This document shows, in pieces, positions 4,843 to 53,158 of a DNA stretch of 64,000 nucleotides. Source of the DNA: Diphasiastrum complanatum. Its lineage: Eukaryota; Streptophyta; Lycopodiopsida; Lycopodiales; Lycopodiaceae. The notes beneath the pieces are model-generated. The model was not told the origin of the DNA. It saw nothing but the letters and a program-made list of their open reading frames with translations, and did not search any database. Each line of letters begins with the position of its first letter. Position 1 is the first letter of the stretch. Made by a program: the position numbers and the translations under genes. The stretch covers positions 33,452,361-33,516,360 of the forward strand of contig CM055106.1 in the NCBI GenBank assembly GCA_029204225.1. Reading direction: 5' to 3'.

Positions 4843-5675
4843 TGTGAAAAATGCAAAAATAAGCTTGGTAGAGGCCAAAAATCATGTATATAGGATGATT
4901 ACACATGTGTGGAGCCTGTTCCCACGTGTGAAAATAATGTACTTGTCATTTACCATAATCATATAGGTTGTACATATGATTTAATTCAAGTTCTAGTGGC
5001 TAAAAAGGCCAAAAACTAGTTTTCTAGATATATGACACATGGCATCAATCTATTGATTGCATGAGCCAAATATTTTGGTTAGGTGTCACATACCATGTGT
5101 AGAGGATAGATCACACGTGTGGAATAAGCTGAAGTAGGCGAATTTGGACTTCTAGAAGATTTCCAAGTAGATCTCCATATAGAAGCAAAATGGACCAAAA
5201 GTGCTCAAAATAGAAGGTTTTGTCCAAGTGTCAGTTTTGCATGATGAATCATCGTATGACAAAACACCTTCACACATGTGGGATCCGAGGGATGATCAGT
5301 ACCACGAGCTCCCACTTATTGTATATATAGAGCCACATTTGGCCATAATCATTGTGAGACACCAATCTTGGTTTTGGAAGCAATTTTGAGTGATTCTCTC
5401 CATTTGTCTACATTTGTTTTGATTGTTTTGAGGTTCTATCACTGTGTACTTGATTTTCAGGTTGGAGTCTATACTCAGACAGTTTTTCACACGTGTGAAA
5501 CCATAAAGTACACTTACCTTCAATCAATGATTGTTCTTGTTAGGATTTTGTGTCTAGAATTGATCTAGATTGATCTTAATCTGAAGTAGATTGATAGATC
5601 AAGTAATCTGACAACCAATCCCTCTTGAGGATCAGATTAGGATCCACTCTTGGTCCTTTTTGTACTTTTTCCACA
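4843..5675 (+). repeat. 3' LTR of element A (833 bp)
   Basis: Same length and ends as the 5' LTR, about 10 substitutions by eye. Followed by the second TSD copy CAAAT at 5676-5680. Confidence 0.92.
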
Positions 5676-5940
5676 CAAATGAGAATCCACCTTTTATTGC
5701 ACTCATGATACAAGAAATGCTTTGTGAAATGTCAACTAGTTATGTTGAGTTTATTTGGCAATTTTGAGGCCAATATGCATTTTTATCTTAGAGATAGACT
5801 TTATAAAGCTAATAAGGCCTAAGAATAGTGGATTAACTATTTTTGAAAACTTAGGCAAGTTGATAAGGTCGCATATAGACCTCTTGATATTGGCTCAAAA
5901 ACATGCATTGAATCTAGTCATGTTAGATCTAGGTTTTTTT

Positions 5941-6200
5941 GAGGATCTAGAAACTTCCATAAGTTAATAAGCTTGTGCAAGAATATCCAAATAGGGAAAG
6001 AGAGGCTATTATAAAAGGCTACAAGCTTGGGAGTAACTCATCTCTCTCGTTCTTCAGAAGATATCTCTTTGGGTTTCTACATCCATTTTTGCATTTTGGT
6101 GGTGATATAGTGAGATTTTGTGTATAGAATGCTATTTTTCTTATGTGTATGAATCCACATGTGTGAGTATTGATGTGATCTCATATGCATTTGGTAGGCA
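5941..6200 (+). repeat. Copia LTR fragment with TATA box
   Basis: The segment starting GATCTAGAAACTTCC recurs at about 8965-9100, including a TATA box (TATAAAA at 6010-6016; TATAAATA at 9031-9038) and the downstream CATCTCTCTC leader. It probably belongs to the LTR that ends at 7420, split by the reverse LTR at 6288. The copy at 9 kb abuts a broken protease frame. Confidence 0.5.
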
Positions 6201-6286
6201 GCTTTGATACCACTATTGTGATCTTAGAGATGTTTTGTACACAGATCTGGTACCACTGATGGAATCGGTGAGTCGCTCTAATACCA
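6201..6286 (-). other. Three tandem degenerate Met-tRNA primer-site sequences
   Basis: Read on the minus strand, TGGTATCAAAGC (6201-6212), TGGTACCAGATC (6244-6255) and TGGTATTAGAGC (6275-6286) lie within 90 bp. The last sits one base from a TG-type LTR edge at 6288 and is the likely functional site. The other two may be leader duplications. Confidence 0.5.
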
Positions 6287-6287
6287 C

Positions 6288-7200
6288 TGATGGGAAATCT
6301 AGAGGATCCCGATGTGGAAGCTCGAATAGAGTCGATCTATGTAGTTGTAGCTACTGCTTCATACTACAATCAATCATCTTCGGAACTATAGACTAACATT
6401 GCAGATCTAATATTAATTTATGAACAGTAGATAATGTTTTCATCATCAATCGATAATTGAAAACAACGAAAGTAATATCTACTGCAAGCAAGCATCACAA
6501 ACCATTCACAGATTGCACACGATAGGCAGAATGCTGCAACTCATCTATTATTAGCATTAAGTTTACAACAAGATCTTTGAGCGCTGTCTATTTTCCAAAT
6601 TAGCCCGTTGGCGCAAGAGAGGTATTCTCTCCCACGAGAAAAACTAGCTACTGCTAATTTTCTATATCTTGTAACTAGCTACTGCTTGTTACTTCTCTAT
6701 CTATCACACTGTGACTATATATGTTTTTCTCCCACGTTGATCCTGTATATAGGAACGAAGAGACATGATTAATCTAATCTGCATAAGAGATTATTAATCT
6801 AAACTGTAGTAGTACTGTGTGTTCACGCCTTGGTTCCATTTTGCGAAAAATGCGAAGAACGCGTTGTCGCAAAAATGCGAAAATGCCGAAGGTTTGTGAA
6901 AAACACGTTCTTAGTCATTTAGGGCTAAGTGTCGCATTTCTCAAAAGTGTGAAAAAGCTGAAGGTAGGCAAAAAAATATATTCTAAGTCATTTTGAACTA
7001 AGTGTCGCATTTTTTCCAAAATGCAAAAAAGTCGAGGTCCATGGAAATATGTTCTAAGTCATATTTTGGCCGTGTCGGTTTTTCGGAAAATGCGACAAAT
7101 GCGAACTGTGCGAAACTTAGTTCAAATATGCAGACTGTGCAAAACTTAGTTAAAAAATGCAACAGTCTAAAAATACAAAGAAAACAAAAATACTAAAGCT
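6288..7200 (-). repeat. Probable LTR of an E-like Copia, reverse orientation
   Basis: It begins TGATGGGAAATC next to a minus-strand primer site, so on the minus strand it ends CCCATCA, like the element E LTR end at 32470. The part at 6830-7150 is a low-complexity run of AAATGCGAA-type motifs similar to 30400-30650 and 35270-35530, at the matching position near the LTR start. The right boundary is not clear. Confidence 0.4.
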
Positions 7201-7420
7201 TTGACACTTAGAAACTTAAGGTTTCTTCAAGTACCATTGTTGTACAGAAAAGAACAATAAATTATCATATCTAAGTGTTAATGACAAGTTCTTATTGAGT
7301 TTTCATCTTCTATGCATAGTTGATGCATGATTTTTACATTTGTAATGCAGCTAGATGTGCTCTCTAAATTAGCTAAAGATCAAAGACAAAAATTAGATAT
7401 TTGTGATCTAATTTTTCACA

Positions 7421-7432
7421 TGGTATCAGAGC
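7421..7432 (+). other. Primer-binding site of a plus-strand Copia
   Basis: TGGTATCAGAGC directly follows an LTR end (TTTTTCACA, ending 7420). It marks the start of the interior holding the gag at 8010. The stretch 7433-8009 is an AT-rich leader. Confidence 0.8.
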
Positions 7433-8009
7433 TTCGTTTCAGACTGTATTTGGAGGAGAAGCCAATTCTAGTGAGTGATTTGGAGGCACCATCAATTCTA
7501 GAGTGTGCTAGAGTGATTCCTTGTCAAAATTAAGCATTTTCATGTGTATAATGGGGATCTTTGTGATCCAAGGCTAAATTGAGGTCAAAATACTTGTAGT
7601 AGGCCAACTTCCCTCCCTAATTATTGGATTGTGACGAGTTTTGATTCATAAGAAATGTTTTATATCATTCTTCAAGATTCTATTTCAAGTTTCTAGCTTT
7701 TGCATGTAGAATTTGTGTGATTCATCTGGAAACCCTAAAATTAATAGGATGTCTTGATTTTGAAGTTTTTGGACTTTTCAAGATTGTGTTTCAATCTTAG
7801 AGAGTGCAAAAGTTAATGATATTGTAGGTTGATCATGTGCTGAGATCAAGTGTCATGAATTCTATGTGGTGATTTTGCTAGTTTTGTGCAAGAAAGAGAT
7901 TTGAGAGGTTCCATATCTTTGTTATTTCTTCTTGGATTCATTCGTTGAATGTCAATAGAGTTATAAGTGCATTGGAATAGGTTGAAAGAGAAGCTTAAAT
8001 AATTGCAAC

Positions 8010-8586
8010 ATGGCTACAAATGGAGGCTTCATGTTGGAGAGCAATGATAGGCTTACCTCAAGCAACTATTCAAATTGGAAGGTGAGAATCGAGTTTCTCC
8101 TTGAGATGAATGAGTTGATGGACATTGTTGTAGTAGTGGAGGAGAGGTCCTTAGCACCTCGAGATAAATTGAGGTATGATAGGAGGACAAAGAAAGCTCT
8201 TTAAGATGAATGTGACTGATGAACTTCTCAAGGAAGTTGGTAAGTGCACTACATCTAGTGAGCATTGGGAAGCTTTAAAGAAGGTTTATAAGTCCAGGTC
8301 TAAATCAAGGGTTCTAACCCTTAGGAGGCAAATCTTTCAAAGCTTACAAAAGAATGATGAAAGTGCTCATGCTTTTCTTTTGAGGGTGAAAACATTCAAT
8401 GATGAGTTAGCATGTATTGACGAAAACATCAAAGAGATAGAACTTGTTGAAGTAGTTCTTAATGGCTTGTTGGATGATCATTCTAATCTTGTTCAAAGTT
8501 TTGCTATTAAAAAGACATTGCCAAGTATGGAGGACTTGAAAGAAATCTTGGTGAATGCGAAGTTTAGGCTCCTACCAAGAGGATGA
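8010..8586 (+). pseudogene. Copia gag (UBN2-type), frameshifted
   Basis: Starts MATNGGFMLESNDRLTSSNY, the usual opening of plant Copia gag. A segment with NYSNWK and a long helical region (SEHWEALKKVYK, LTLRRQIFQSLQ, ELACIDENIKEIELVEVVL) follows. The first frame stops at 8202-8204; the rest continues in another frame from about 8176. Downstream, a knuckle CFYCGIK-stop-HFIGEC (about 8728-8770) has an in-frame TGA. Gag would form the virus-like particle. This copy is non-functional. Confidence 0.75.
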
Positions 8587-8734
8587 TAGTCTTCCACATC
8601 TCAAGTTGGAGATGAGGAGGCTATGTTCTCAAAGGGCAAGAGCAATGAGAAGCGGTCTAAAGGGCAAGATCAAGGTGAGCCTTTTACTTTTGTTGGCAAG
8701 AAGAAAGATAGATCTAAGCTAAAATGTTTCTATT

Positions 8735-8965
8735 GTGGAATCAAATGACATTTTATTGGTGAGTGCTTCAAGAAGAAGAGAGATCAAGGTGATAAATCTA
8801 ACTCTTGATGAAGATGGTGTTGATGTTCAAAACTCAAATGATGATGCGCTTGTGATATCTTCATGTTTGATTGCTAATGATGGAGATATTGATCCTTGTT
8901 GGATTGATAGTGGAGCAAGCTCACACATGACCTTTCACAAAGAGTACTTATCTAGGCTTTGGTAA
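8735..8965 (+). pseudogene. Copia aspartic protease fragment
   Basis: Contains CWIDSGASSHMTFHKEYLS, the Copia protease active site (D-S-G) with its SSHMT flank. It ends abruptly at 8965, where sequence matching the LTR piece at 5941 begins, so integrase, RT and RNase H are lost. A near-identical protease motif occurs on the minus strand at 30922-31299. Confidence 0.75.
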
Positions 8966-9114: not shown

Positions 9115-9970
9115 CAATGTCGTTGTTAAGGCAGTACTCCTTGAGTTCGGTGGAGATGTATTCTCCCCTGTTATCGGACCTCAATGCTTTGATTCGTTTA
9201 CCAGTTTAATTTTCTGCATGGTCTGAACTTGATGAAAGCTTCTGACTTTTGTTTAATGAAGTAAACACCTGTTCTTCTAGAAAATTCGTCAATAAAGGTA
9301 ATGAAATACTTTGCATCTAGTAATGAAGGAGTTTGCATAGGTCCACATATATATGTATGAACAACATCTAACAGACCTTTTGTTGCAGGTCTATAACTCG
9401 CTCTAAGCTATGGCAGACAAGGAGATCGACTTGATCTCGACTATCCTTTTGGTAAAGTCGATGACCTGAATCTGTGATTCTACTTACTAATAACAAATTT
9501 GTAGATAGTTTAGGAACATACAAGACTTTTGACAGTAGTTTGAATTGATCATGCTTGAATCATAATCTTACAATACCTTCACCTTTGATAGTGTGAGTGT
9601 TATCGTCACCAAGATGAACATACTTCGTCATGCTATAAGACGTATATGATTGGAAAAACTCGCGATGATTGGTCATATGTTGAGTAGCTCCGAAATCCAG
9701 AAACTACGAATCATTCGAATTCGCGTATTTGTCTTTGACCATAAAAGTGCCTTCGTCCATTTTGACTTCAAGAGATGTTATAACTATATTTGCTTGTTGA
9801 TCTGGTTGCTTGGCTACATGCATCACTTTGAGAATTTGACAATCTTGGATCTCATGGTTATTGCGTTTGCAATACCTGTAAAACATCTTCTTCTCAAACA
9901 AATGTGGATTCGATGATTGTTATTGACCTTGAGTCTGTTTTTTATTCGATGTAGACTGTTTGGAGCTTTT
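9115..9970 (-). pseudogene. Element B: Copia knuckle, GAG-pre and integrase relic
   Basis: On the minus strand after the gag come a degenerate knuckle (YCKRNNHEIQDC, about 9855-9890), a GAG-pre-integrase-like stretch with KYVHLGDDNTHTIKGEG (about 9580-9640), and integrase-core pieces: YFITFIDEFSRRTGVY (about 9245-9295), then ALRSDNRGEY (about 9150-9180). There are several frame breaks. It stops near 9115 at a junction with the LTR fragment, so RT and RNase H are absent. Confidence 0.7.
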
Positions 9971-9976
9971 CCGCTT

Positions 9977-10531
9977 CTATCGTTTCGAGCCCTTATTGAC
10001 ATACAGAGCATGAGACAAAGAGGTAGACGAAGTGTCTTGACTTCTTCGATTATCTTCTTGCAGCAACATAGTGATAACTCTGGTAAGAGTTAAGTCTAAG
10101 TGTGTCGTGATAATCATCACCCAGTTCTCATATGTAGAGGGCAGGCTTGAAAGCAATGTCATAATTGCGTCTTGATCATCTATGACTGATCTGTTAGCGG
10201 CCATTTGTTGCAAGAGATTCTTAAACTGGTTAATATGATTCTGAAGAGAATCATTATTCGACATCTTGAGTGTGAAAAATTTCCTTCGAAGATGTGACTC
10301 AATAGTTAAGTCTCTCACATCATATAGTGAGCTCAGGATGTCCCAAACTTCTTTCGAAGTTCTGGCTTCAACTACATGGCTAATCTGAGTATCTGATATA
10401 TTGAGGATAATAAGCGCGAAAGCTTTACCGTCCTTTGACTTCCATCTTGAGTCGTTTGTGTCGTCTTTAGGCTTCACTTCGATACCTGTAACAACATCCC
10501 ATAGCTCGTTGGCGATTAGCAAGGTCTTCAT
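9977..10531 (-). CDS. Element B Copia gag (UBN2 family), open over 184 codons
   Basis: Carries the plant Copia gag core: ANELWDVVTGIEV, SHVVEARTSKEVWDILSSLY, then HLRRKFFTLKMSNNDSLQNHI and LLSSLPSTYENWVM. The first ATG at 10531 may be internal, because the reading can be followed in another frame upstream toward the primer site at 10783. It is similar in pattern to the gag at 32538. The frame is open but the rest of the element is broken, so function is unlikely. Confidence 0.75.
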   Translation of the reverse strand: MKTLLIANELWDVVTGIEVKPKDDTNDSRWKSKDGKAFALIILNISDTQISHVVEARTSKEVWDILSSLYDVRDLTIESHLRRKFFTLKMSNNDSLQNHINQFKNLLQQMAANRSVIDDQDAIMTLLSSLPSTYENWVMIITTHLDLTLTRVITMLLQEDNRRSQDTSSTSLSHALYVNKGSKR

Positions 10532-10782
10532 CTTAAATTTTCATAAATGATAATTGGATCCATTCAACTTTTCTGGGATAAGACCGACTTTACTTTGAGA
10601 ATTCATCTGGAACTTTAGATTGTCGATGATTCGATTGTCGTTAAGAGAAAGATACAGTGATGTGGAAATCAATTCTCTGATACCGAAACAAATTGATTCG
10701 ACCTGAAGAATAATTTGATATCACAAAAGATACCAAGCGTAAGAGCTTACGCTCTGATAGTATTAGGCCTTGAAGAATCAAT

Positions 10783-10793
10783 GCTTTGATACC
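10783..10793 (-). other. Degenerate primer-binding site of element B
   Basis: The minus strand reads GGTATCAAAGC just inside the LTR end at 10795, a variant of the Met-tRNA site TGGTATCAGAGC. It orients element B on the minus strand. Confidence 0.65.
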
Positions 10794-11355
10794 CTGTTGA
10801 AAAGAGGTGTATGAAAGATAGGTCGAACTCGAAAAGAAAATAATTCGAATAAAAAGAATTTGAATGACAAGAAAAAAAAACTTATCGTGCGCAACGGAAT
10901 AAACTATCTTTCTCTTTCTTTATGCATGATTATGCCTATCAATTTTGAACAAAACAATAGTGTTAGATATCATGTTCGATCTTATAGTAACTAACTTTGA
11001 AATCATTAGTACTACAGTTATTACGTAGCCAAATATTAAGCATCGAAACATCAAACAAACAATTTGTCGCGAAACATTAGACAAATAAGTAGTCGCGAAG
11101 AACTACAGAAACACATACATTCTGAGACGAAACTAAACGCAATAAGAAGATAGTATTGATTTAATATGGAACGAAACAGATGTAAATGAGTACAACAAGT
11201 TGCGAATCAAAGCCGCGTACTCTAAGCTAGCTCTGAGCGGCTGAAATGTAAGTCTGAATTAAGCGCAACTACTGATAAGCAGTAAGCGCAATAGTAATCT
11301 CTAATCAACTCTAAAGAACTGAGCTAGAATGCTCAAGAGTGTACAAACTTGTAGG

Positions 11356-11455
<100 letters not shown>

Positions 11456-11500
11456 AAGTATTCGATACTTGATACTCTTCTTGATCATAATCTTGATCAT

Positions 11501-11505
11501 AAGAT
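11501..11505. other. Target-site duplication of element G, left copy
   Basis: AAGAT precedes the LTR at 11506 and is repeated exactly at 18925-18929. Confidence 0.88.
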
Positions 11506-12322
11506 TGTAGGGTCGAAGATCTCGCATAGTAGTAGCCCTTCCACCAGTCAACAAGGGTTAGAATATTGGATAGGTGCCTAACTATGAATAGATGCTACTT
11601 TTAAATAGTTCTCTACTTTTTCTCTAACTCTACCACCACTAACACTACACACCCCTAACTCTACTCCACTAAACTAACCTTCATCATGATTTTTGGTGAA
11701 AGAGAAGAGAAGAATAGAAGAGATAGGGAGGAGAAGAGAGAAAGAGAGAGATAGAGTAGAGAGGGAGGTTAGCTCAAAAGCTCAAGATGCATGCTAATGG
11801 AGAAACCATAACTATTAAAACGACAACATAGAAATGGAAACAAATAGAAACACACAACAAAAGCATTAGCATGAGTGCTTAGCAAATGAGGATGCTTGGC
11901 TCTCCAATTTGGTAGATTTTACTCCTCATTAAGCATCCAAAATAGAGTACATGAGGTGCCTTTTTATAAATGGGGAAGGCCCTTGCCCCAAAATACTATT
12001 GGCTAATATGTACACTAATCCTATCCATTCATCTTGGACCCAACTTGATCCAAAGGTCTTAAAAAAGTACATTGGATTTCACATGATTCATGTGAGTCTC
12101 CATTTGGACCCACGTCTAAAATAATAGACTTCTAAGTTTAAAATGACTTTGGGCCTCAAGTTTTATTTTAATTACAAAGGGGCCCAAGTCGATTATTCTA
12201 TTTACAACTCAACTTGCGTGCTCATTGGGCCATGGGCTTATATGCGCAGGATGCCATGCCCTCGCAACATTTTTTATTAGCCAATATTATTTATCTACAA
12301 TATGTTGGGAATACCCCCAACA
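11506..12322 (-). repeat. 3' LTR of element G (817 bp)
   Basis: Direct repeat of 18107-18924. A purine-rich run at 11699-11769 (GAGAAGAG-type) is present in both copies. The inner flank reads GGTCGTGGGTCC on the minus strand, a poor polypurine tract. Confidence 0.85.
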
Positions 12323-13761
12323 GGACCCACGACCTGAAGTAGTGTCGGCCCCTCGGCACTCTGCCGGTTTAGTACAAAGTCTTCTTGGCCCGCCTCTGGT
12401 GGATCAGGTAGCCAGTGACATCTTCCATAAAGTTTATTTGGTCTAGTTTCTTCAAGTCCTTGGGCGTGTGAAGTGACTTGTGGACTCCTGTTAGCCAGCT
12501 TTGGTCGACCCACGCTTGAAATCTGTGCGTCCAAGGATCGCCAAGGAATGCGGCTTAGTAGTAAACTCGAGCTACTAGAAGCTGATCTTCCACTTTCTCT
12601 GAGGCTAACGCCTTATTTGGATCAAAGAATATTGGGGGGAGAAAAGTGTCCCACTTCGTTTCGATTCCCATTAGATGTTCTAAGTCTCGAGCGTAAGTGA
12701 CTGCCCTGTGGACTGTTGGGTCAAGGCAGTTGAAATACTTATTAGAGAATTGAGTGAGAGCCCTTCGGGCGTCTACATTCGTATCCCAACCGTGCTCTGA
12801 AGGAATTCTCGGCCAATTATAGTTCTAGATGGTGATCTTGTCTAGAGGAGTGCCGCATTTTGCCCATTTGATCGTCGTGTGCATGGCAGAAAATGCGCGT
12901 TCACCCTTAGCTGTTGTGGACTGGTCATATAGGCCCTGATGGCCGTAGGGTCCCGTTATAATAGTTGCTGGCGCCACTCATGTTGTGGTTGGAGGGCGGG
13001 TAGTGCTTGCAGCTCGTTGTCTTTTATGGTTTGTGCCGAAAAAGATATTTGTCAGCCACCTCTTGAGGACTCGTGGGGATATTTGGATAGGAATTCATTG
13101 ATTTTCTCCTCCACGGACTTGGGGCGTCGGAAAGTCCAATTGGCAGATATGGTGCACGAGCCTCTTGATGAGGAGGCTTGTCCTTCCATTTGGCTATGGT
13201 TGTGACCTGTGTCTTGGCCTTAGTCCCGCGTCTTAGCTCCGTCCTTGGTCTTGTTCGCCTGACCCCTGATCCTGACTTATTGCCCCTGTTGCCTACTAGC
13301 CTTGGTCTTGTTGACAAGCCTTGAGGGCTTGTTTGGCACGGGCGAGCTCTTGAGTTGCGTTGGCTCGGTATTTGTCAAACTCTGCTTGGTAGTTTTCAGG
13401 GTTTGGCTATAGACCTACACCTGATGCCTGAAAAGATTCATCTTTGCTTAAGAGAGTGGCCTTGAGTCAGGTGCGGATTGAGCTAACCAGACGAGTTTTT
13501 CGCTTTGCAGGGCTTGTACCTCCGCCCCCAGGCGCGTATTTTCTACTTCATAGATCTGGAGTTGCGCCAGTCATTGGGACGCTTCAAACTGAAGCTCCCG
13601 CGCCTTAGTGGAGGCATTGTCAACGCTTTGGAGAGGCTCTAAATACATTCGTTGAGGCCATCCTCCTTCTGTTGCAGCTTGGTGATCTCCCGGTGCCCGT
13701 CTTGTTCGTGTTGTTGAGCAATTATGAGCTCTTGCTGCAGCTTCGTAATTTCTGCTCGCAA
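12323..13761 (-). other. Element G interior downstream of the gag-like frame
   Basis: GC-richer than its surroundings. On the minus strand, coiled-coil-like segments continue after the stop at 13762: EITKLQQELIIAQQ (about 13710-13755), and further on EFDKYRANATQELARAKQ (about 13325-13385). This suggests one decayed protein read through stops and shifts. From about 13000 to 12323 I recognise no domain. Confidence 0.4.
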
Positions 13762-15533
13762 CTACTTGTTGTTCATTGCCAAATGGAGTACCTGGCTATC
13801 CAATGATGCTCTGGCTGCTACTGCATCTTGGATGAATGTTCCCAAGGCTTGGTAGGCCGTCGTTAAGTCCGTTGGAACAGCCAGTACATTGGCACTTGCA
13901 GGGGCTTGTGTGGCAGTAGCCCCAATGACCTGTACAGAGCCATCGTCGTTGTCTTTAATGAGTTTCTCCGGTGACCTTTTGTCATTTGGGGTGGTGGGAT
14001 CTACTCGATCCGGTAATGGAATAGAAATTGTTTGTACAATTGCGTCATCAGGCAACGGTTGGTCACCCTCGACAGCCTTTGATGGAGAAATGGATGGTGT
14101 GGGAGGAACATAAGTGAAAACCAGGGTGGGGACAGTTTGTCCAAACGAGATAATGGGTGGAACAGAGGGGAACTGGAGGGTGGTGTGGAGTACGGAAAGC
14201 GAAGATGGGTCGGAAGTGTTCTGGCGTGGTGGTGAAAAGTTGATGACCTTCATCCATGCCAGAGTGTTCAGAGACAACTGGGAATCAGCAGGATTGAACT
14301 GGAGAGGGACAGCGGTGGGAACTGGAGTAATGGAGGATGTGATAGTGATGGATGGGGTGGTAGAAAATGGAACAGAGGGAGAAGTAGTATCTACAGAGGA
14401 GATGGGCGTAGAAACAAAAGTAACAATTGTGGGTTGAATAGAAGAAACAAGAACAGAAGCAAAAACAGTGATAGATGGTTGTACAGAAGAGGAAGTGGCA
14501 ATAGTAGAAGCAGGAACTGTTAGCGGTGCAATGGTGCGGCATCTGGTAGCAGGTGGGGATGAGGAGGAAGGGGCAGCGCCACGTATTCTTTTGTTGGTCG
14601 TCATGTCAATAACTGTAGGTTGGGCAGAAGTGGATGCGATAGATGGAGGATAGAGATTAGTGTGTGGCACTGTGTATGATAGAAGGCTGGAACATCGGAA
14701 GCCGCGCACTTTTGCCTCGAGAAGTGCACATGCAAAGTTATACAATAGGGGGCCTGCTGTGATACGTTCTCAATAATTTGACTTTATTGAGTTTGTTAGT
14801 TCGCAGATGAGGAAGGCATGCCAGTCGTATGGCACAACCGTGGGGCCAGGGAATTCCAGAAAGGACTCCACAATCTGACTCAGTAGTGTGGACTGGATTC
14901 TGTCCTTGCAAAATGTTAAAATAACCAAAAAGTTGTTCAACAGATGTGCAGCTGCTTGAATGATTGGTTCTGTGATAGCCTCTATCAAGTACTCGTTGTT
15001 AGTTTGGATCAGAATTTTTGGTGCAGTCTGAGTGATGAAAGGTTTTATCAGGGCTCTTGCCTAACGATGAGAGATGGACTGACAATCACCGGACATAATG
15101 CCGACAGTGACCATCGAGTCCACATTAATTTGTACCTTGTACGTGTGGTACCCTGGTATAGAAAGTGGAAACGCGACTTCGGCGTGTCCCAGGTGGCATA
15201 AGCGTGCAGGGCGAGGCCCATGTTAATGTCAAAGTTGAAAAGCGTCGGGTAAAAACTCATTGCTTCAAGAAGTGGGCCAACAATCTGAAGCCATGGTTTA
15301 ATCAGGGCATTAGAAGACAAGGGCCAAATATGGGTGGCTGAGGGTATCTCGCGCTGGATCACCAGCTTGGTGCCAGAGTCGTCAGAAGATGAGGAGGCCA
15401 TATTAGTAGTGATAGTTAAAGTGCGAAAAAGTAGAAAAAACGGTTGAAAAGATAAAAAGTAATGGAAACGAGAAAAACAGTGGATAACAAGAATTGGATG
15501 GTAGTAACAGCAGTTCAGAGTGTAGATCTGCAT
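13762..15533 (-). pseudogene. Element G gag-like protein, uncharacterised, broken
   Basis: A probable start lies at about 15402 (MASSSSDDSGTK; the open frame extends to 15533). The N-terminal part has LLEAMSFYPTLFNFDINMGL, then HAYATWDTP and TRTRYKLMWTRWSLSALCP. A frame change near 15050 leads to a helical stretch ending FLICELTNSIKSNY (14770-14988), a TGA, then about 300 residues very rich in Ser, Thr, Pro and Val (13762-14745). Coiled-coil sequence follows beyond 13762. No zinc knuckle, protease or polymerase is seen. Its place in the element suggests gag or an accessory protein. I do not recognise the family. Confidence 0.5.
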
Positions 15534-15796
15534 TCAAAGTATGCAGATGATGTCTTGTATGAATTTTGGTCGCATAAGGAGAACTTGGAAAATTCGGTCG
15601 AAATTTGAGCAGAGCTTCACTAGGAAAGGTGACAAATGACTCAAATTCAACCCTTATATAGCGGAATTTAGAGTGCGTATTAGGTGAAATCCACTTTCAC
15701 ATGCTTAGTTCCATCCAAATTTTGGCAGGGACCTTCTTCACGATATTCTAAGACCTCAAAGAAGTCTGCAAGAGTTTAGAAGGTGATTTGATTGTC

Positions 15797-15990
15797 TTGC
15801 GAAGGTTATGCGAGGGTTCAGACAGTTTGCGAGGGTTCAATCCTCGCAGGGAGTGAATGCTCACACAACTTGCTCCTGTGGTTGGATTTTCAAGATCAAA
15901 CTATGTAGACAGGCTAATTTCATTGCTCTGATTCCATTTATGTCCCTCGCAAAGGTTCTGAATATTTTGTTTCTTGGAACCCTCGCATAC
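15797..15990. other. Leader segment with inverted GCGAGGGTTC repeats
   Basis: GCGAGGGTTC occurs at 15810 and 15829. Complements occur at 15842-15847 (CCTCGC), 15944-15950 and 15978-15987 (AACCCTCGCA). GCGAGG at 15829 can pair with CCTCGC at 15842 across a short loop, and the outer copies can form a longer stem. It lies in element G between its gag-like frame and the antisense pol. Confidence 0.55.
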
Positions 15991-16387
15991 ACTAAAAAAT
16001 GATGTTTTCTCCATCAGTAACTCTTGTAGAGATTTTCATGGATGCATCTGGGTCAGATCTAGTGACTGTCCAAGTTTCAAGAGTTATCTCCCAGGGGATC
16101 TCCAAAAATCATGAAAAAAAGGTTTTTTTAGAGTGTTTTTTGACGAGATTTTGAGATTCTCTGATTTTTAACTGTTGCAAACTGGTAATCTGCTACATCC
16201 ATGTTAGATCTGACTGTTAGTAGCTCTCTGGAAGTTCTAATAGATAATTGGTAGCAGATCCATCAGTTTTGGTGAATTTTGTCCTTATTTTGCCATGGGT
16301 TTTGAGATCGAGGTCTTTGATTTGCAATTTGAGGGCCTTATTGGTGTAATTTGATGATATGCTTCTCTCTTGATCCTATCCAATTTA

Positions 16388-18002
16388 CAAGCTCACAACG
16401 GACCCACATTGGAACGAGGAAGCCCTAAAGGCTTTCCAAAAGCTTAAGGATGCATTGCTCTCAGTGCCAATCTTACGGCCACCCAATTGGTCCATTGAGT
16501 TTTGTGTGCATACAAACGCATTGAAGTATGCAGTTGGAGCAGTCTTAACCCAACCAGGGAAAAACAAAAAGGATTTTGCGATCCGATTTGCAAGCTGATA
16601 GCTCAGTGATATAGAAATGAATTACTCAACCACAGAGCGAGAAGCACTGACAATGATTTATGCGGTTGAGAAGTTTCGGCATTACCTGATGGCCACTCAT
16701 TTTGTCTTTTATACGGACCATCAACCCTTGCTCTATCTCGTTAACAAAACTTGCAACACGAGGAGAATCACTCAATGGCTACTTGTGTTGTTAGAGTTTG
16801 ATTTTCGAATAGTAGTTCTCAAGGAAAAACAATACTACATGGCAGATCATGTATCACGTATCAAGGGAAAGGAGGTTGCAACCCACCCCGACGATGAGCT
16901 GCCTGATGCTGCCTTATTTTACGTAGACACATTACCAAAATGGGCTGCCGACATAGTTGAATATCTAATGACGAGCCCACCAGACAAATCACTACCAAAT
17001 GCGGATCAGCGAAAATTGATCTTGAAAGCTAGACCTTATCAATTGATTGTCGGCCAATTGTACCAAAGAGGACCAGATGGGATTCTTCGACGGTGTATTC
17101 TTCCTCATGAGGCCACCCAGATCATTTCGCTTTCACATGAAGGCATGGGTGGAGGCCATTTTGCATCCGACATTATAGTTCGCAAGATCTTGCAATCAGG
17201 ATGTTGGTGGCCAACGATTCATAAGGATACGGAGAAATACCTGAGAAAATGCGATGTGTGCCAAAGGGCGAGGAGACCAATGAGACTGAATTATGACCTT
17301 CTACACCCGGTCCTAGCCCAAGCATCATTCGAAAAGTGGGGATTGGATTACATTGGTCCAATTCACCCTGCAGCAAGAAGTACCCAGGCTCGATACATAA
17401 TCGTGGCCATCGACTATCTCACCAAGTGGATCAAAGCCAAGGCAGTAAGAGTAGCTAATGCTAGGACCACTGCCAAGTTTCTCTATGAAAATATCATTGT
17501 GCACTTTGGGTGCCCGATGGAGATAGTCAGCAATCGTGGGAGTCATTTCATCAATGAGACCATCAAGGTCTTATTGGTGATCCGTAGAACTAGTACGCCT
17601 TATTATCCTTGCGGTATTGGGCAAGCAGAGTCATCCAATAAGATCATGTGTAGCATTCTCACGAAAATAGTTGAAGCTAGCAGATCGAATTGGAAACACA
17701 AGTTACATGCTGCTCTGTGGGCATTCCGGACAACATATAATGGAAGCACTAAACAAACGCCATTCCAATTGGTTTATGGTCAAGATGCTGTAATGCCAAT
17801 GGAATTTTTGGTACCCTCGTTAAGGATTGCCACAACGCAACGCCTTGATGAATCCAAATCTCTACAATTATGCCACAAAGCTCCGTATAATCTCTGTGAA
17901 ACATGCTTACTAGTTGTGCATGCACTGGCAGATGAAAAGAAAGACGCAAAGCATGGCACAATCGCAGGTTACAAAAGAAGGAACTTTGTTATTGAAAACT
18001 AA
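16388..18002 (+). pseudogene. Gypsy pol fragment: RNase H and integrase, antisense within element G
   Basis: The fragment begins at the end of Gypsy RT (DPHWNEEALKAFQKLKDAL). RNase H follows, with two stops near 16597-16602, TTEREALTMIYAVEKFRHYL and FYTDHQPLLYL. Then comes an intact HHCC zinc domain (HEGMGGGHF, CDVCQRARRP) and the integrase core to about 17990. Catalytic residues are lost: RNase H reads VHTNAL where Asp is expected, and integrase reads VSNRGSHF instead of SDRG. WGLDYIGP and the catalytic Glu (GQAESSNK) remain. The open part, 16617-18002, is 461 codons. It has no RT core, protease or gag on this strand and is enzymatically dead. Confidence 0.9.
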
Positions 18003-18087
18003 CTCTAAACACCCAAAAATCTACCTAAAACTACTCCAAAAAGCAAGAAATAGCTAAAATGCAACTATACTAGTTAGTGGAAACCTA

Positions 18088-18105
18088 TCCCCGACAACGG
18101 CGCCA
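18088..18105 (-). other. Primer-binding site of element G, tRNA-Asp type
   Basis: TCCCCGACAACGGCGCCA on the plus strand equals the 3' end of plant tRNA-Asp with one change (A for G at the seventh base). It sits one base from the LTR at 18107 and fixes element G on the minus strand. Confidence 0.85.
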
Positions 18106-18106
18106 C

Positions 18107-18924
18107 TGTAGGATTGAAGATCTCGAGTAGTAGTAGCCCTTCCGCCTGTCAACGAGGGTTAGAACACTGGATATGTGCCTAACTATGAATAGATGCTACT
18201 TTTAGATAGTTCTCTACTTTTTCTCTAACTCTACCACCACTAACACTACACACCCCTAGCTCTACTCCACTAAACTAACCTTCATCATGATTTTTGGTGA
18301 AGAGAAGAGAAGAATAGAAGAGATAGGGAGGAGGAGAGAGAAAGAGAGAGATAGAGTAGAGAGGGAGGTTAGCTCAAAAGCTCAAGATGCATGCTAATGG
18401 AAAACCATAACTATTAAAACAACAACATAGAAATGGAAACAAATAGAAACACACAACAAAAGCATTAGCATGAGTGCTTAGCAAATGAGGATGCTTGGCT
18501 CTCCAATTTGGTAGAGTTTCCTCCTTCTCATTAAGCATCCAAAATAGAGTACATGAGATGTCTTTTTATAAATGGGGAAGGCCCTTGCCCCAAAATACTA
18601 TTGGCTAATATGTACACTAATCCTATCCATTCATCTTGGACCCAACTTGATCCAAAGGTCTTAAAAAAGTACATTGGATTTCACATGATTCATGTGAGTC
18701 TCCATTTGGACCCACGTCTAAAATAATAGACTTCTAAGTTTAAAATGACTTTGGACCTCAAGTTTTATTTTAATTACAAAGGGGCCCAAGTCTATTATTC
18801 TATTTACAACTCAACTTGCGTGTTCATTGGGCCATGGGCTTATACACGTAGGATGCCATGCCCTTGCAACATTTTTTATTAGCTGATATTATTTATTTAC
18901 AATATGTTGGGAATACCCCCAACA
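18107..18924 (-). repeat. 5' LTR of element G (818 bp)
   Basis: Direct repeat of 11506-12322. On the minus strand it starts TGTTGGGGGTATTCCC and carries TATAAAAAGG near 18565. Followed by the TSD AAGAT at 18925-18929. Confidence 0.85.
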
Positions 18925-18929
18925 AAGAT

Positions 18930-19246
18930 TGATCATAAGATGTTGAAATATGAATAGCTATTTATACTAAGCAATTAGGTCGTCAAAAGCGTCATCCAGT
19001 TGGCTGTGATGTGTTGGCATCCATCCAGTTAGGACTTCTCAGAAACTACTTGCTGATGGATCAATGCAAGTCGGTGGCTTTGGTCGTAAACAGTCTGTCT
19101 GCAGAGATGAACGTAAACTGTCACTGTGAGCCGTTTCGAGTAGTTATGCAGACTGTGTAAAAACACGAAGAAAATTGTAGGTTTGGATAAAAGTTGGACA
19201 AAGATTAAAATGTCGATTAGTCGATTAGTGAGAGAATAATCCAACA
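18930..19246 (-). repeat. 5' LTR of element B, outer part
   Basis: Continuation of the LTR interrupted at 11505. It ends AATAATCCAACA, matching AAATCCAACA at the end of the related LTR at 30728. Confidence 0.8.
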
Positions 19247-19435
19247 TGGGCCCCATATGGAACAAAAGTCATGAAGGCAATCAGTTGCATTTGTAAGCCC
19301 TCTATAATGGGTGAAACTAGAACCACATCATGTGCATAAAGAATAATTGCAATTGGTGCATTCGGACACATGAATCGAATCATTGTGTCGAAGGCGTGGT
19401 AGACGGTAGTTCGCTTGGAACTTTTCCCTTGCTCT

Positions 19436-19654
19436 TCAGGTCAATAAACTCATCCTCGATAAAGATGACATATTTGCTGAAGAATACATTTGAAGTACGA
19501 GATCATATAACTTATAAGCTTTGTCGGAAGAAGCATAACCAATAAAGACGAATTTGATGTTGTTGGAGTCCAGCTTCTTTTGGGTATCTTTGCCTTCAAC
19601 GTTTACCATATCATACATGATTGGGCAAAAGAGATCACATTTGGATATCTCCAT
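19436..19654 (-). pseudogene. Copia integrase C-terminal scrap
   Basis: The minus strand encodes KLDSNNIKFVFIGYASSDKAYKLYD, matching the conserved Copia segment after the integrase core (KCIFIGY...KGYRLYD). It lies outside the element B LTR, so it belongs to an older element into which B inserted. 19247-19435 has no clear homology. Confidence 0.65.
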
Positions 19655-20505
<851 letters not shown>

Positions 20506-27655: not shown

Positions 27656-28624
27656 CTAATCAAAAAGACTGAAACCCATATCTTCATCAGACTCCTCTTC
27701 AGGCTCCGCCTTTGTCTCTGGCTCCTCTTTCTCTACCGCAGTTGGAGCGGCCACTGCTCCTGCAGAGACTGCAGGTGCAGCAGCTACAGCAAACTTACTA
27801 GGATCCTTGAGGTACTCTTTAAAAGAATCAGCTTGTGGAAACGAATACTCAGTTGCAAGAGCAACCGCCAACACATTCTTGTATGAATTCACAAAGTAGT
27901 GAGGTGCCGCAGCCAATGTAGGATACCCTACCGCCAAAGAAAGCGCAGCCACAGTCGACACACAAGCAGCAAACTTCTCAATCATATCATCCTCAGTTAA
28001 ATCTAAAACCGCTGGATTAAACACGGAGCCCTCATCGTAAATCATTTGCACAATAAGCCCGTAAGAGAAGGGACGAATCCCGAGCTTTGCAAGCAAAGCT
28101 GCTTCGGAAGATCCGACCTTGTCGCCCTGCTTAACAAGCTCAACAGGTGCAATAATTTCCACAGTACCCTTGTTGATCTTGGTGGGGATATTCAAAACCT
28201 GGAAGAAAGAAGTCTGAGATGGATCAAGGCCTGTATTGCCGGGAGGGATAACCACATCAATCGGAGCAACAAGCCCTACGCGAGCAGGCGCCCCAACCTT
28301 ATACTTAGCCACCTCTTCCCTAACTTCTTTCAGATCACCTTTGGTGAAAATCAATCCCACATTGCCAACCAGCAAGGGCATAAGATTCAACACATCAGAG
28401 TTGCCATTCTTTTCAGAGAAAGTGCGAATAGTGCGCTTCATCATGGTGTTCTTTCCCATCAGAACCACCGAATCTGGCCGCAGACCCTTCCTGATCTGCT
28501 GAAGCTGCGTAGATCCCACATTGTCAGCAACACAGATCAAAGCTTTGGAGTATTCTTCCAATAAACCGCATAGCTTCTTATCATAGACGGCCTTTTTCTC
28601 GGCTTTTGTTCCTTTGAAACCCAT
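27656..28624 (-). CDS. RPP0: 60S acidic ribosomal protein P0 (uL10)
   Basis: The 322-residue product is full length for plant P0 and uninterrupted. P0 anchors the P1/P2 dimers to the large subunit, forming the lateral stalk that recruits elongation factors; it acts in the cytoplasm. The start [18 protein letters not shown] is the standard N terminus. Residues 1 to about 185 are the L10 rRNA-binding region ([36 protein letters not shown]). The central part is the eukaryotic insertion, followed by P1/P2-binding helices and an Ala/Pro-rich hinge. It ends in the diagnostic acidic tail [11 protein letters not shown]. The coding region has no introns, but TTTTCTTTGCAG just upstream (acceptor at 28639) suggests a 5' UTR intron. 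Telo-boxes lie upstream, as in many plant ribosomal-protein promoters. Confidence 0.97.
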
Positions 28625-28638
28625 TCTGGAAATCGATC

Positions 28639-28650
28639 CTGCAAAGAAAA
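28639..28650 (-). other. Probable 3' splice site in the RPP0 5' UTR
   Basis: The minus strand reads a pyrimidine-rich TTTTCTTTGCAG ending 14 bases before the ATG. I could not fix the matching donor; one candidate is GTTAAAG near 28785. Confidence 0.5.
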
Positions 28651-28817
28651 GCTTGAAACAAAATGTAAAGCAAATTCAATATAGAACCCTATAATTCCAA
28701 ATGAAAAGGAAAATGGAGGTGGCAGAGATTGGGGTCCAAGCCAAGCTCCTGCGGCAAGGCAAGGCGGGCAGCGATGGCTGCCTCTTTAACCCCCAACAAG
28801 AAGCCGCGCACCAAAGA

Positions 28818-50792: not shown

Positions 50793-52864
50793 TCATGCAA
50801 CTACGACACGTCGAAGTATTGCAAGTGCCTGAGTGCGTTGTAAAGTCATCGAAACTCGTTGACGATAATTAGCCGTAATGATAGATAAAGGTGAGGCACC
50901 ACGACCTTGGAGTTTCGCTGCAAAACCTGCACAAGATGATAGAAAATCATCGAATTTCTTATGTAGGCACCCATATGTTTCCAAAGCAAAAGGGATGAAG
51001 CCTTCTCCAGGAATGCGATGTGAATAATCTCGCTCTTTATCAAGAGTTGCATGAGAAGCAGCGGCACCCTAAGTAGTTGAAGCACGACGAAGGAGGTCAG
51101 GCCGCGAAGGATCAACAACAACAACATCCCCAAGCATGCGAATACCCTCGCGAGGCGACTGTGAATCAGACACAGGCAAGATGTGGGTCTGCTCCTGAAC
51201 AACATGAAAGCCGCACTCATGAGCAATAGATGCCAATAAGTCACGAATGGAATCATGAGTCACAGTGCGCTCTCCGCCGGAAGGGCAACGCATGAGATGA
51301 GTGCCAATAGGATCAACAAGGTGACCACAAGAACATTTTGTCAAACCTGCTAGCACTGGATGAGGGAGACCCAACCTAACCCGAAGAGCGGTGAGAAACA
51401 ACTCTGAAGAAAGGCGCAAGTGTGGAACAACAGGGCGCGTAACAAGCCAAGCACCAGCACCCATTCCTGCACAAGACAAAAGGCGAGCCCGAGTCTCATC
51501 GAAAGGTGAATCACTGAGAAGCTGAGTGAAAGCATGTGAGTGGAAGCGCTCCAAAAGATACTTCTAAAAATGAGCACGCTGATGGCTAAGCAAAGACTCA
51601 AAGGGAGGCAAAGAAGCTCGCACAGGTGGAGGAATGAGGTCCTTGGCCGCACGAAGATGTTGTTGGAAAGGAAGAATGCTTGTTTCCACATGAGCTACTG
51701 AATCGAGAAGAATGGGCTTGTTGTCCTGCTGAAATCGAGAGATAAGTGCAGAGGCAACAAGGGCCCAACTTCTCATAAAAGCAGCTGGAGCAATAGAAGC
51801 TGTGCAAGAAAGACCAACACCTCCGGACGAAGCGAGAAGAGAGACTTGTCGCTTAACGGACTGACCATTGGGAAACCGAAAGGATTTTGAACCCATCAAG
51901 CGACCCAGAATATCTGATAAAGTATTATCGAAATCCTGTAGCAAAGCCAAAACATCAGGAGAGGGAGGAACACACCGTAGAATATAACTTGGCTGTTGAG
52001 CGAAGCAAGTAAAACACAGCGACGCAACCGACGATGAATAGGGGGTATAGAAACACCATCCGAAGTCGAATCCCGCTGAGCAGCAAGCACATGACAGCGA
52101 AGGAAATGCTCTTCTTGCAGGTTTTCCCAATCTCCTGACATAAAGCGACGAATTTTGTTGCGAGTTTCCCTATGACCAGCATCACCACCCCAAGGAGGCA
52201 GAGGCAAACACCAGAGAGGAAAAAGCAAAAAGGCATGCCAAGCTGCAATATCAGAAGGGTTGGAAGCCAGACGAGACAAAGGTAAGGACAAAGCTCTCTG
52301 GACATCTAAGCGCAAGGCAAAGAGAATGTGTGCATAAAGACGAGGACGAGGAAAACCCAAGTGAAAAGCGGTCAAAATATCAAGGGAGAGAATCCAGGTC
52401 CAAGCCGAGTCAGGTGGCGAAGTGGGAGCAGGATGAGGTGCAAGGTCGACATTGGTTAATGCGAGTTGTTGATGAAAAGCAGAGCAAGCGTTATGATGGC
52501 GAGAAAGACCGGCACCTTGCACATAAAGGCGACCACAGCCTGCACATGGAACACGGCGGCGAGAAGAGGAAGAGGGAGAAAGCTGAGAAACTGAAAGAGA
52601 GGAAGAAAGCTGATGGCGACGATGGGGCGGACAATATGGCACCACCTGGCCAGAGGAAACAAGCAAGGAATCCGCAACATCACGATGGGCTTCACGACGC
52701 ACACATGAAGGGGAAGCACTAGAAGGATGCTCTGAAGGGGAAGCAAGTCTCTTTTCTCCACGTCGAGCAAGAGGATTGAAATCCGGGAGTTGCAAAGGAT
52801 GAGAAGATTCTTGAGGAACCATATTGATAGGTAAAGATCCAGCCGCTGCCTCTGAAGATTCCAA
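50793..52864 (-). pseudogene. Zinc-finger ORF resembling a reverse-transcriptase protein that lacks its RT domain
   Basis: Start MESSEAAAGSLPINM at 52864. A Ser/Pro/Arg-rich N terminus holds a Cys2-His/Cys finger (CAGCGRLYVQGAGLSRHHNAC). Then come AWHAFLLFPLWCLPLPPWGG and RRFMSGDWENLQEEH, a segment I associate with the pre-RT region of non-LTR-like RT ORFs. After a frameshift near 52050, reading resumes (PPSPDVLALLQDFDNTLSDI) and continues in one frame to 50793. That frame is broken by TAG codons at 51564 and 51069, each likely from CAG. Downstream are SSGGVGLSCTASIAPAAFM, RARLLSCAGMGAGAWL, a CSCG-H-C knuckle with DPIGTHLMRC, HDSIRDLL, GDVVVVDP, IPFALETYG and RVSMTLQRTQALAIL. The knuckle plus D-containing core resembles the R2-type finger and restriction-like endonuclease region. 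No RT motifs lie between the halves. Family assignment is from memory of pattern. Confidence 0.5.
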
Positions 52865-53158
52865 AAATTAGTGTGAAGCCTCCTTGTTGGCTAACAAGAC
52901 CCTACTACGAATCCTGCAGGCTTTGCTTTTCAGTAGAATGAGTTTTCAAAGACTTACGCCAGTGACTGGCTGCCCTACAAGCTGTCCTGATCTGTTTTTA
53001 GCTCTAACTGTATGCTTGCTTATCCAAATCTGAAAAAATCTAGCTGCGATAGGTCGCCCTACTATCGGAAATCAGCTCCTTGATCACCGCCGCAAAGCCT
53101 TCAACTCTTTCTACTCCAGATTTACAACTTTCCATTCTTTCTTGAAAAGCGGGAAGAC

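Follow-up and report, generated by a model that had tools for sequence, protein, structure and literature searches.

The window, a 64,000-nucleotide stretch of DNA (G000:C15:33452361-33516360 in a 1.74-Gb genome), carries one complete LTR retrotransposon insertion on its minus strand. The 3' LTR (left copy, 817 bp, 11506-12322) and the 5' LTR (right copy, 818 bp, 18107-18924) both have TG..CA ends and are flanked on each side by the target-site duplication AAGAT (11501-11505 and 18925-18929), verifying the two-LTR insertion described in the original prediction. In the alignment of the two LTRs (815 sites), 28 substitutions were counted, of which 22 are transitions, giving a K2P distance of 0.035. 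Assuming 1.3e-8 substitutions per site and year in plants, this distance corresponds to an insertion age of roughly 1.4 million years. A genome search with the LTR, in which the best 40 of 6275 first-look candidates were scored, returned 42 matches; among these, the top two were the element's own LTRs and the remainder were 90-95% identical. A long AG dinucleotide run lies immediately left of the insertion (11359-11453), and similar runs occur at the loci of several relatives. Elsewhere in the window, a long minus-strand frame (27656-28675) corresponds to acidic ribosomal protein P0/L10 (Pfam Ribosomal_L10, RL10P_insert, and Ribosomal_60s), and a 323-aa open frame (51896-52867, minus strand) in a G+C-rich patch had no Pfam match at E 0.01.

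The primer-binding site places the element on the minus strand. This tRNA-Asp-type site (18088-18105) reads on the minus strand from 18105 to 18088 and matches, at 17 of 18 positions, the complement of what we take to be the tRNA-Asp 3' end. None of 20,000 random 30-mers of the internal composition reached 15 of 18. On the plus strand beside the left LTR, the best match to tRNA-Asp was only 9 of 18. A plus-strand element primed next to 12322, using tRNA-Asp as the one tRNA tried, was rejected on this basis. The orientation of a TATA box in the LTR had also been offered as strand evidence, but it settles nothing because TATA-like strings can be read by eye on both LTR strands. Inspection by eye of the minus strand beside 12322, at the edge of the 3' LTR, found no clear purine run to serve as a polypurine tract. 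Past the primer site, a remnant of the 5' leader occupies 17991-18087 on the minus strand.

Antisense to this element, a block of Ty3/Gypsy pol lies at 16381-17990 on the plus strand. Its plus-strand frame at 16602-18002 gave Pfam matches to RT_RNaseH (2.2e-17), RT_RNaseH_2 (1e-07, over the stretch shared with RT_RNaseH), and Integrase_H2C2 (7.7e-11); rve scored 0.0027, under its cut-off. The plus strand from 16383 to 18002 encodes part of RNase H and integrase (RH-INT), and two neighbouring stops at 16596-16601, within RNase H, are all that interrupts the frame upstream to 16383. With these two stops, nothing suggests that coding capacity has been maintained in the antisense block. The codon at 17532-17534, which we assume to be the second catalytic Asp of integrase, is AAT here and in one of eight relatives, and the equivalent codon is GAT in the other seven. 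The predicted geometry, a pol fragment inverted relative to a minus-strand element, is confirmed. Lacking an intact pol, this copy could be mobilised only in trans.

The remaining minus-strand sequence was assigned by comparison with relatives. It comprises the region adjoining the 3' LTR (12323-13761), a set of frames at 13762-15533, and a spacer (15534-16380) that lies between integrase and these frames in relatives and is collinear with them up to 16380. The frames at 13762-15533 had been described as gag-like. They gave no Pfam match, and a piece from one relative gave a weak match, under the cut-off, to an unrelated family (ODAPH, 0.037). In relatives, the equivalent of 13762-15533 sits 3' of integrase; with pol and this region on one strand there, the supposed gag falls downstream of integrase. 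The region is therefore a 3' ORF region, here split into several frames; in OTA elements of plants, an additional or env-like ORF occupies this position. Among the best matches of 3880 candidates, its best relative was 85% identical.

To describe the usual arrangement of the family, ten loci were read with approximately 10 kb on each side and compared piecewise with the window element. The locus at C9:27583000 was nearly full. In the orientation of the window, it carries an LTR, the 3' ORF region, the spacer up to the equivalent of 16380, a further 356 bp, the RH-INT block reversed relative to the window, a stretch of approximately 5.3 kb, the leader, the primer-binding site, and the first 41 bp of the other LTR. 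Its identity to the window element was 86% in the LTR, 84% in the 3' ORF, and 88% in pol. The 5.3-kb stretch gave a Pfam match to RVT_1 (3.3e-07). By eye, its translations on the same strand showed gag-type pieces, one of them zinc-knuckle-like, for which Pfam gave no match. The order taken as canonical is based mainly on this one copy, whose right LTR is itself cut short. Reverse transcriptase (RT), RNase H, and integrase lie in this order and in one sense in relatives; in the window copy, RT is absent and RH-INT is inverted. Relative to C9, the window element has two gaps, one of 356 bp at the integrase end and one of approximately 5.3 kb toward RT, and the 1.6 kb that separates them is inverted. 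The integrase-end gap measured 329-353 bp against two other loci (L032 and L031). By position, the missing 5.3 kb holds gag and protease in addition to RT.

Sense pol was the rule among the relatives. The pol block had 8048 candidates in the genome, a number of candidates and not of copies, as also for the 3' ORF region, and every search scored the best 40 of such thousands. Among the best 39 other pol copies, 30 were arranged opposite to the window, none was arranged in the same way, and nine were uninformative, with orientation in 32 of the 39 judged from a 1.1-kb stretch at the integrase end alone. The 30 sense copies comprise 24 of these 32, the copies on C9, C20, and C19, those at C13:13.57 Mb and C5:30.02 Mb, and C2698, whose orientation was taken from the match coordinates of the pol and 3' ORF searches. 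The uninformative ones are the other eight of the 32 and C22:44427865. Some relatives are apparently duplicates (e.g., C19 and C2698, with equal scores), so the independent cases are fewer than the counts. Two loci outside this list of 39, on C10 and at C5:29.8 Mb, were likewise sense. Internal deletions were found in other copies as well (C20, C5:29.8 Mb, and L003, with approximately 2.7 kb deleted inside the copy).

Both ends of the inverted block were located nearly to the nucleotide. Junction 1 lies at 16380-16381 with approximately 1 nt of shared sequence, and junction 2 at 17986-17994 (approximately 17990) with 2-3 nt. A query spanning 16150-16600 matched itself in full, and all 39 other best matches broke at query positions 229-231, corresponding to window position ~16380. 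Similarly, a query spanning 17700-18106 matched itself in full and the other 39 best matches all ended at window positions 17982-18001. Neither junction was found in another copy among the other 39 best matches of each search, although a diverged copy sharing a junction could escape a search of this depth. The inversion and its deletions thus appear private to one copy among the best matches searched. Looking for copies that lack the antisense pol, as the original prediction had proposed for its refutation, was the right test; a family in which antisense pol is fixed was rejected, with 0 of the 39 listed copies antisense (nine uninformative) and neither junction recurring among the best matches.

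Sequence divergence identifies the source of the block. In the pol ORF, divergence between the window element and eight relatives ranged from 9.6 to 13.1%, and that among the eight relatives from 9.3 to 13.8%. The block is 85-89% identical to relatives among the matches listed, no lower than the best value for the 3' ORF region, and this agreement points to the family's own RH-INT. From the same relatives, the 3' ORF region has diverged as much as the pol block or more. As far as divergence goes, the block is unexceptional among the pol sequences of the family. Private substitutions in the block number 28 of 1379 sites (11, 3, and 14 at codon positions 1, 2, and 3), a weak test that uses only columns where the relatives agree. 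This value is close to half of the divergence between the LTRs and is weakly consistent with an inversion near or after insertion.

Taken together, the locus is very probably one defective member of an Athila-like (OTA-type) Ty3/Gypsy family present in high copy number, with its own RH-INT inverted and flanked by deletions. The two LTRs, the primer site, and the 3' ORF region are all retained. The 5.3-kb stretch and approximately 0.36 kb next to integrase are gone, and the RH-INT between them is turned round. We infer an origin in one aberrant event with two strand-switching joins. By one route, template switching during cDNA synthesis would have produced the rearrangement and the element would have inserted already rearranged; by the other, breaks would have undergone microhomology-mediated repair after insertion. 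We slightly favour template switching in the cDNA. Retention of the LTRs and primer site makes transcription and mobilisation in trans conceivable, and there is no sign of movement in the rearranged form.

The original prediction offered instead the capture of an inverted pol fragment. In the version weighed here, another Gypsy family would have supplied the RH-INT sequence, taken up antisense by transduction or nested insertion. The block does lie on the opposite strand with sharp ends, and its identity of 85-89% to relatives is below the 95% of the best other LTR copies. However, the 3' ORF region is itself just 85% identical to its best relative, and the best-matching pols reside inside elements that share the 3' ORF, the spacer, and, where it was read, the LTR at comparable identity. 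No LTR or target-site duplication was seen bounding the block, and the normal position of pol would otherwise be empty. Capture of a foreign pol is thus very improbable and was rejected.

An evolved antisense arrangement had also been suggested. Here, the element would belong to a non-autonomous lineage whose LTR transcript, carrying antisense pol, acts as an antisense or siRNA trigger against autonomous relatives in the manner of Mu killer. The element still has its LTRs and primer site, and transcription of the minus strand would yield an RNA spanning 16381-17990, antisense to the family pol at approximately 88% identity. A precedent exists in Mu killer, where part of a transposase gene is duplicated in inverted orientation and silences its family (PMC3440606). 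Nevertheless, the junctions do not recur in the two sets of 39 best matches, and all informative relatives, 30 of the 39 listed, are sense. Moreover, no inverted repeat of at least 40 nt was found in 10500-20000 (seed 14), leaving no long hairpin within the copy. A lineage of this kind is extremely unlikely. We regard as equally unlikely the proposal that the ~1.6 kb of LTR-driven antisense pol silences sense relatives in trans, as a Mu killer counterpart born by inversion. Misassembly, with part of the element flipped in error, deserves hardly any credence: high-copy repeats are error-prone in assemblies, but a simple flip would not produce the deletions seen at both breakpoints (~0.36 and 5.3 kb relative to C9), and identity to the block reaches only 89% in the best other copy, so the segment was not misplaced from another listed copy.

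Other loci in the searches showed pol and LTR sequences in opposite orientations. At L025 (C11:35036000-35045900), a family-related LTR at 9476 is followed by a leader truncated to the equivalent of 18016, which abuts non-family DNA. Approximately 580 bp off, positions 5062-8898 carry gag-, protease-, and RT-like frames of a diverged Gypsy element on the opposite strand, with weak Pfam matches under the cut-off. This locus (C11:35.04 Mb) holds a 66% pol relative, and the 16.5 kb covered toward the interior contained no second family LTR. It may be a truncated or nested locus, and it was left out of the counts as a second antisense case. At L003 and L004 (C4162 and C13:55717783), a family LTR is directly flanked by a 77%-related pol in the opposite orientation, an arrangement consistent with insertion into another Gypsy element.

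Our findings confirm the geometry of the element and indicate that its cause looks like ordinary genomic wreckage and not a new kind of element. A lone rearranged copy, read without its relatives, can mimic a new architecture. With breakpoints resolved to near-nucleotide precision and relatives in the usual order, this locus provides a clean case of inversion plus deletion in a plant LTR element and one data point on the origin of such defective copies.

The features of the family fit Athila, a clade defined by RT phylogeny. A tRNA-Asp-type primer-binding site is linked to Athila. More broadly, non-chromoviruses include tRNA-Asp among their primers, and an additional archaeal-type RNase H marks Tat (PMC6317226). 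In the pieces scanned here, which cover the polyprotein in part, the only RNase H models were RT_RNaseH and RT_RNaseH_2, over one stretch. In some Athila elements, a third, env-like ORF comes after gag and pol, and many Athila copies are non-autonomous and lack pol (PMC2410132). The present family resembles them in its primer-site type, in its frequent defective relatives, and in an extra ORF between integrase and the 3' LTR, the position of the env-like ORF. It differs in that the scanned pieces gave no Athila-specific Pfam match, no polypurine tract was obvious, and the pol block of the window copy is inverted.

Antisense coding sequence within plant LTR elements has a precedent in Retand and other Tat elements, where antisense ORFs, mostly with a TRP28 domain, lie between pol and the 3' LTR and are widespread in the lineage (PMC11963269). 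Those ORFs are likewise antisense to gag-pol inside the element, but in the window the antisense piece is pol itself, lies next to the 5' leader, and occurs in one copy. Among the titles and abstract openings listed from the open-licence literature, none reported an inversion inside a plant LTR element. Complex insertions of plant LTR elements, bearing a target-site duplication and similar outer LTRs, have been ascribed to abnormal template switching (PMC1950507). As described there, those insertions contain an internal LTR and two cores, whereas the element in the window contains an inverted block with flanking deletions.
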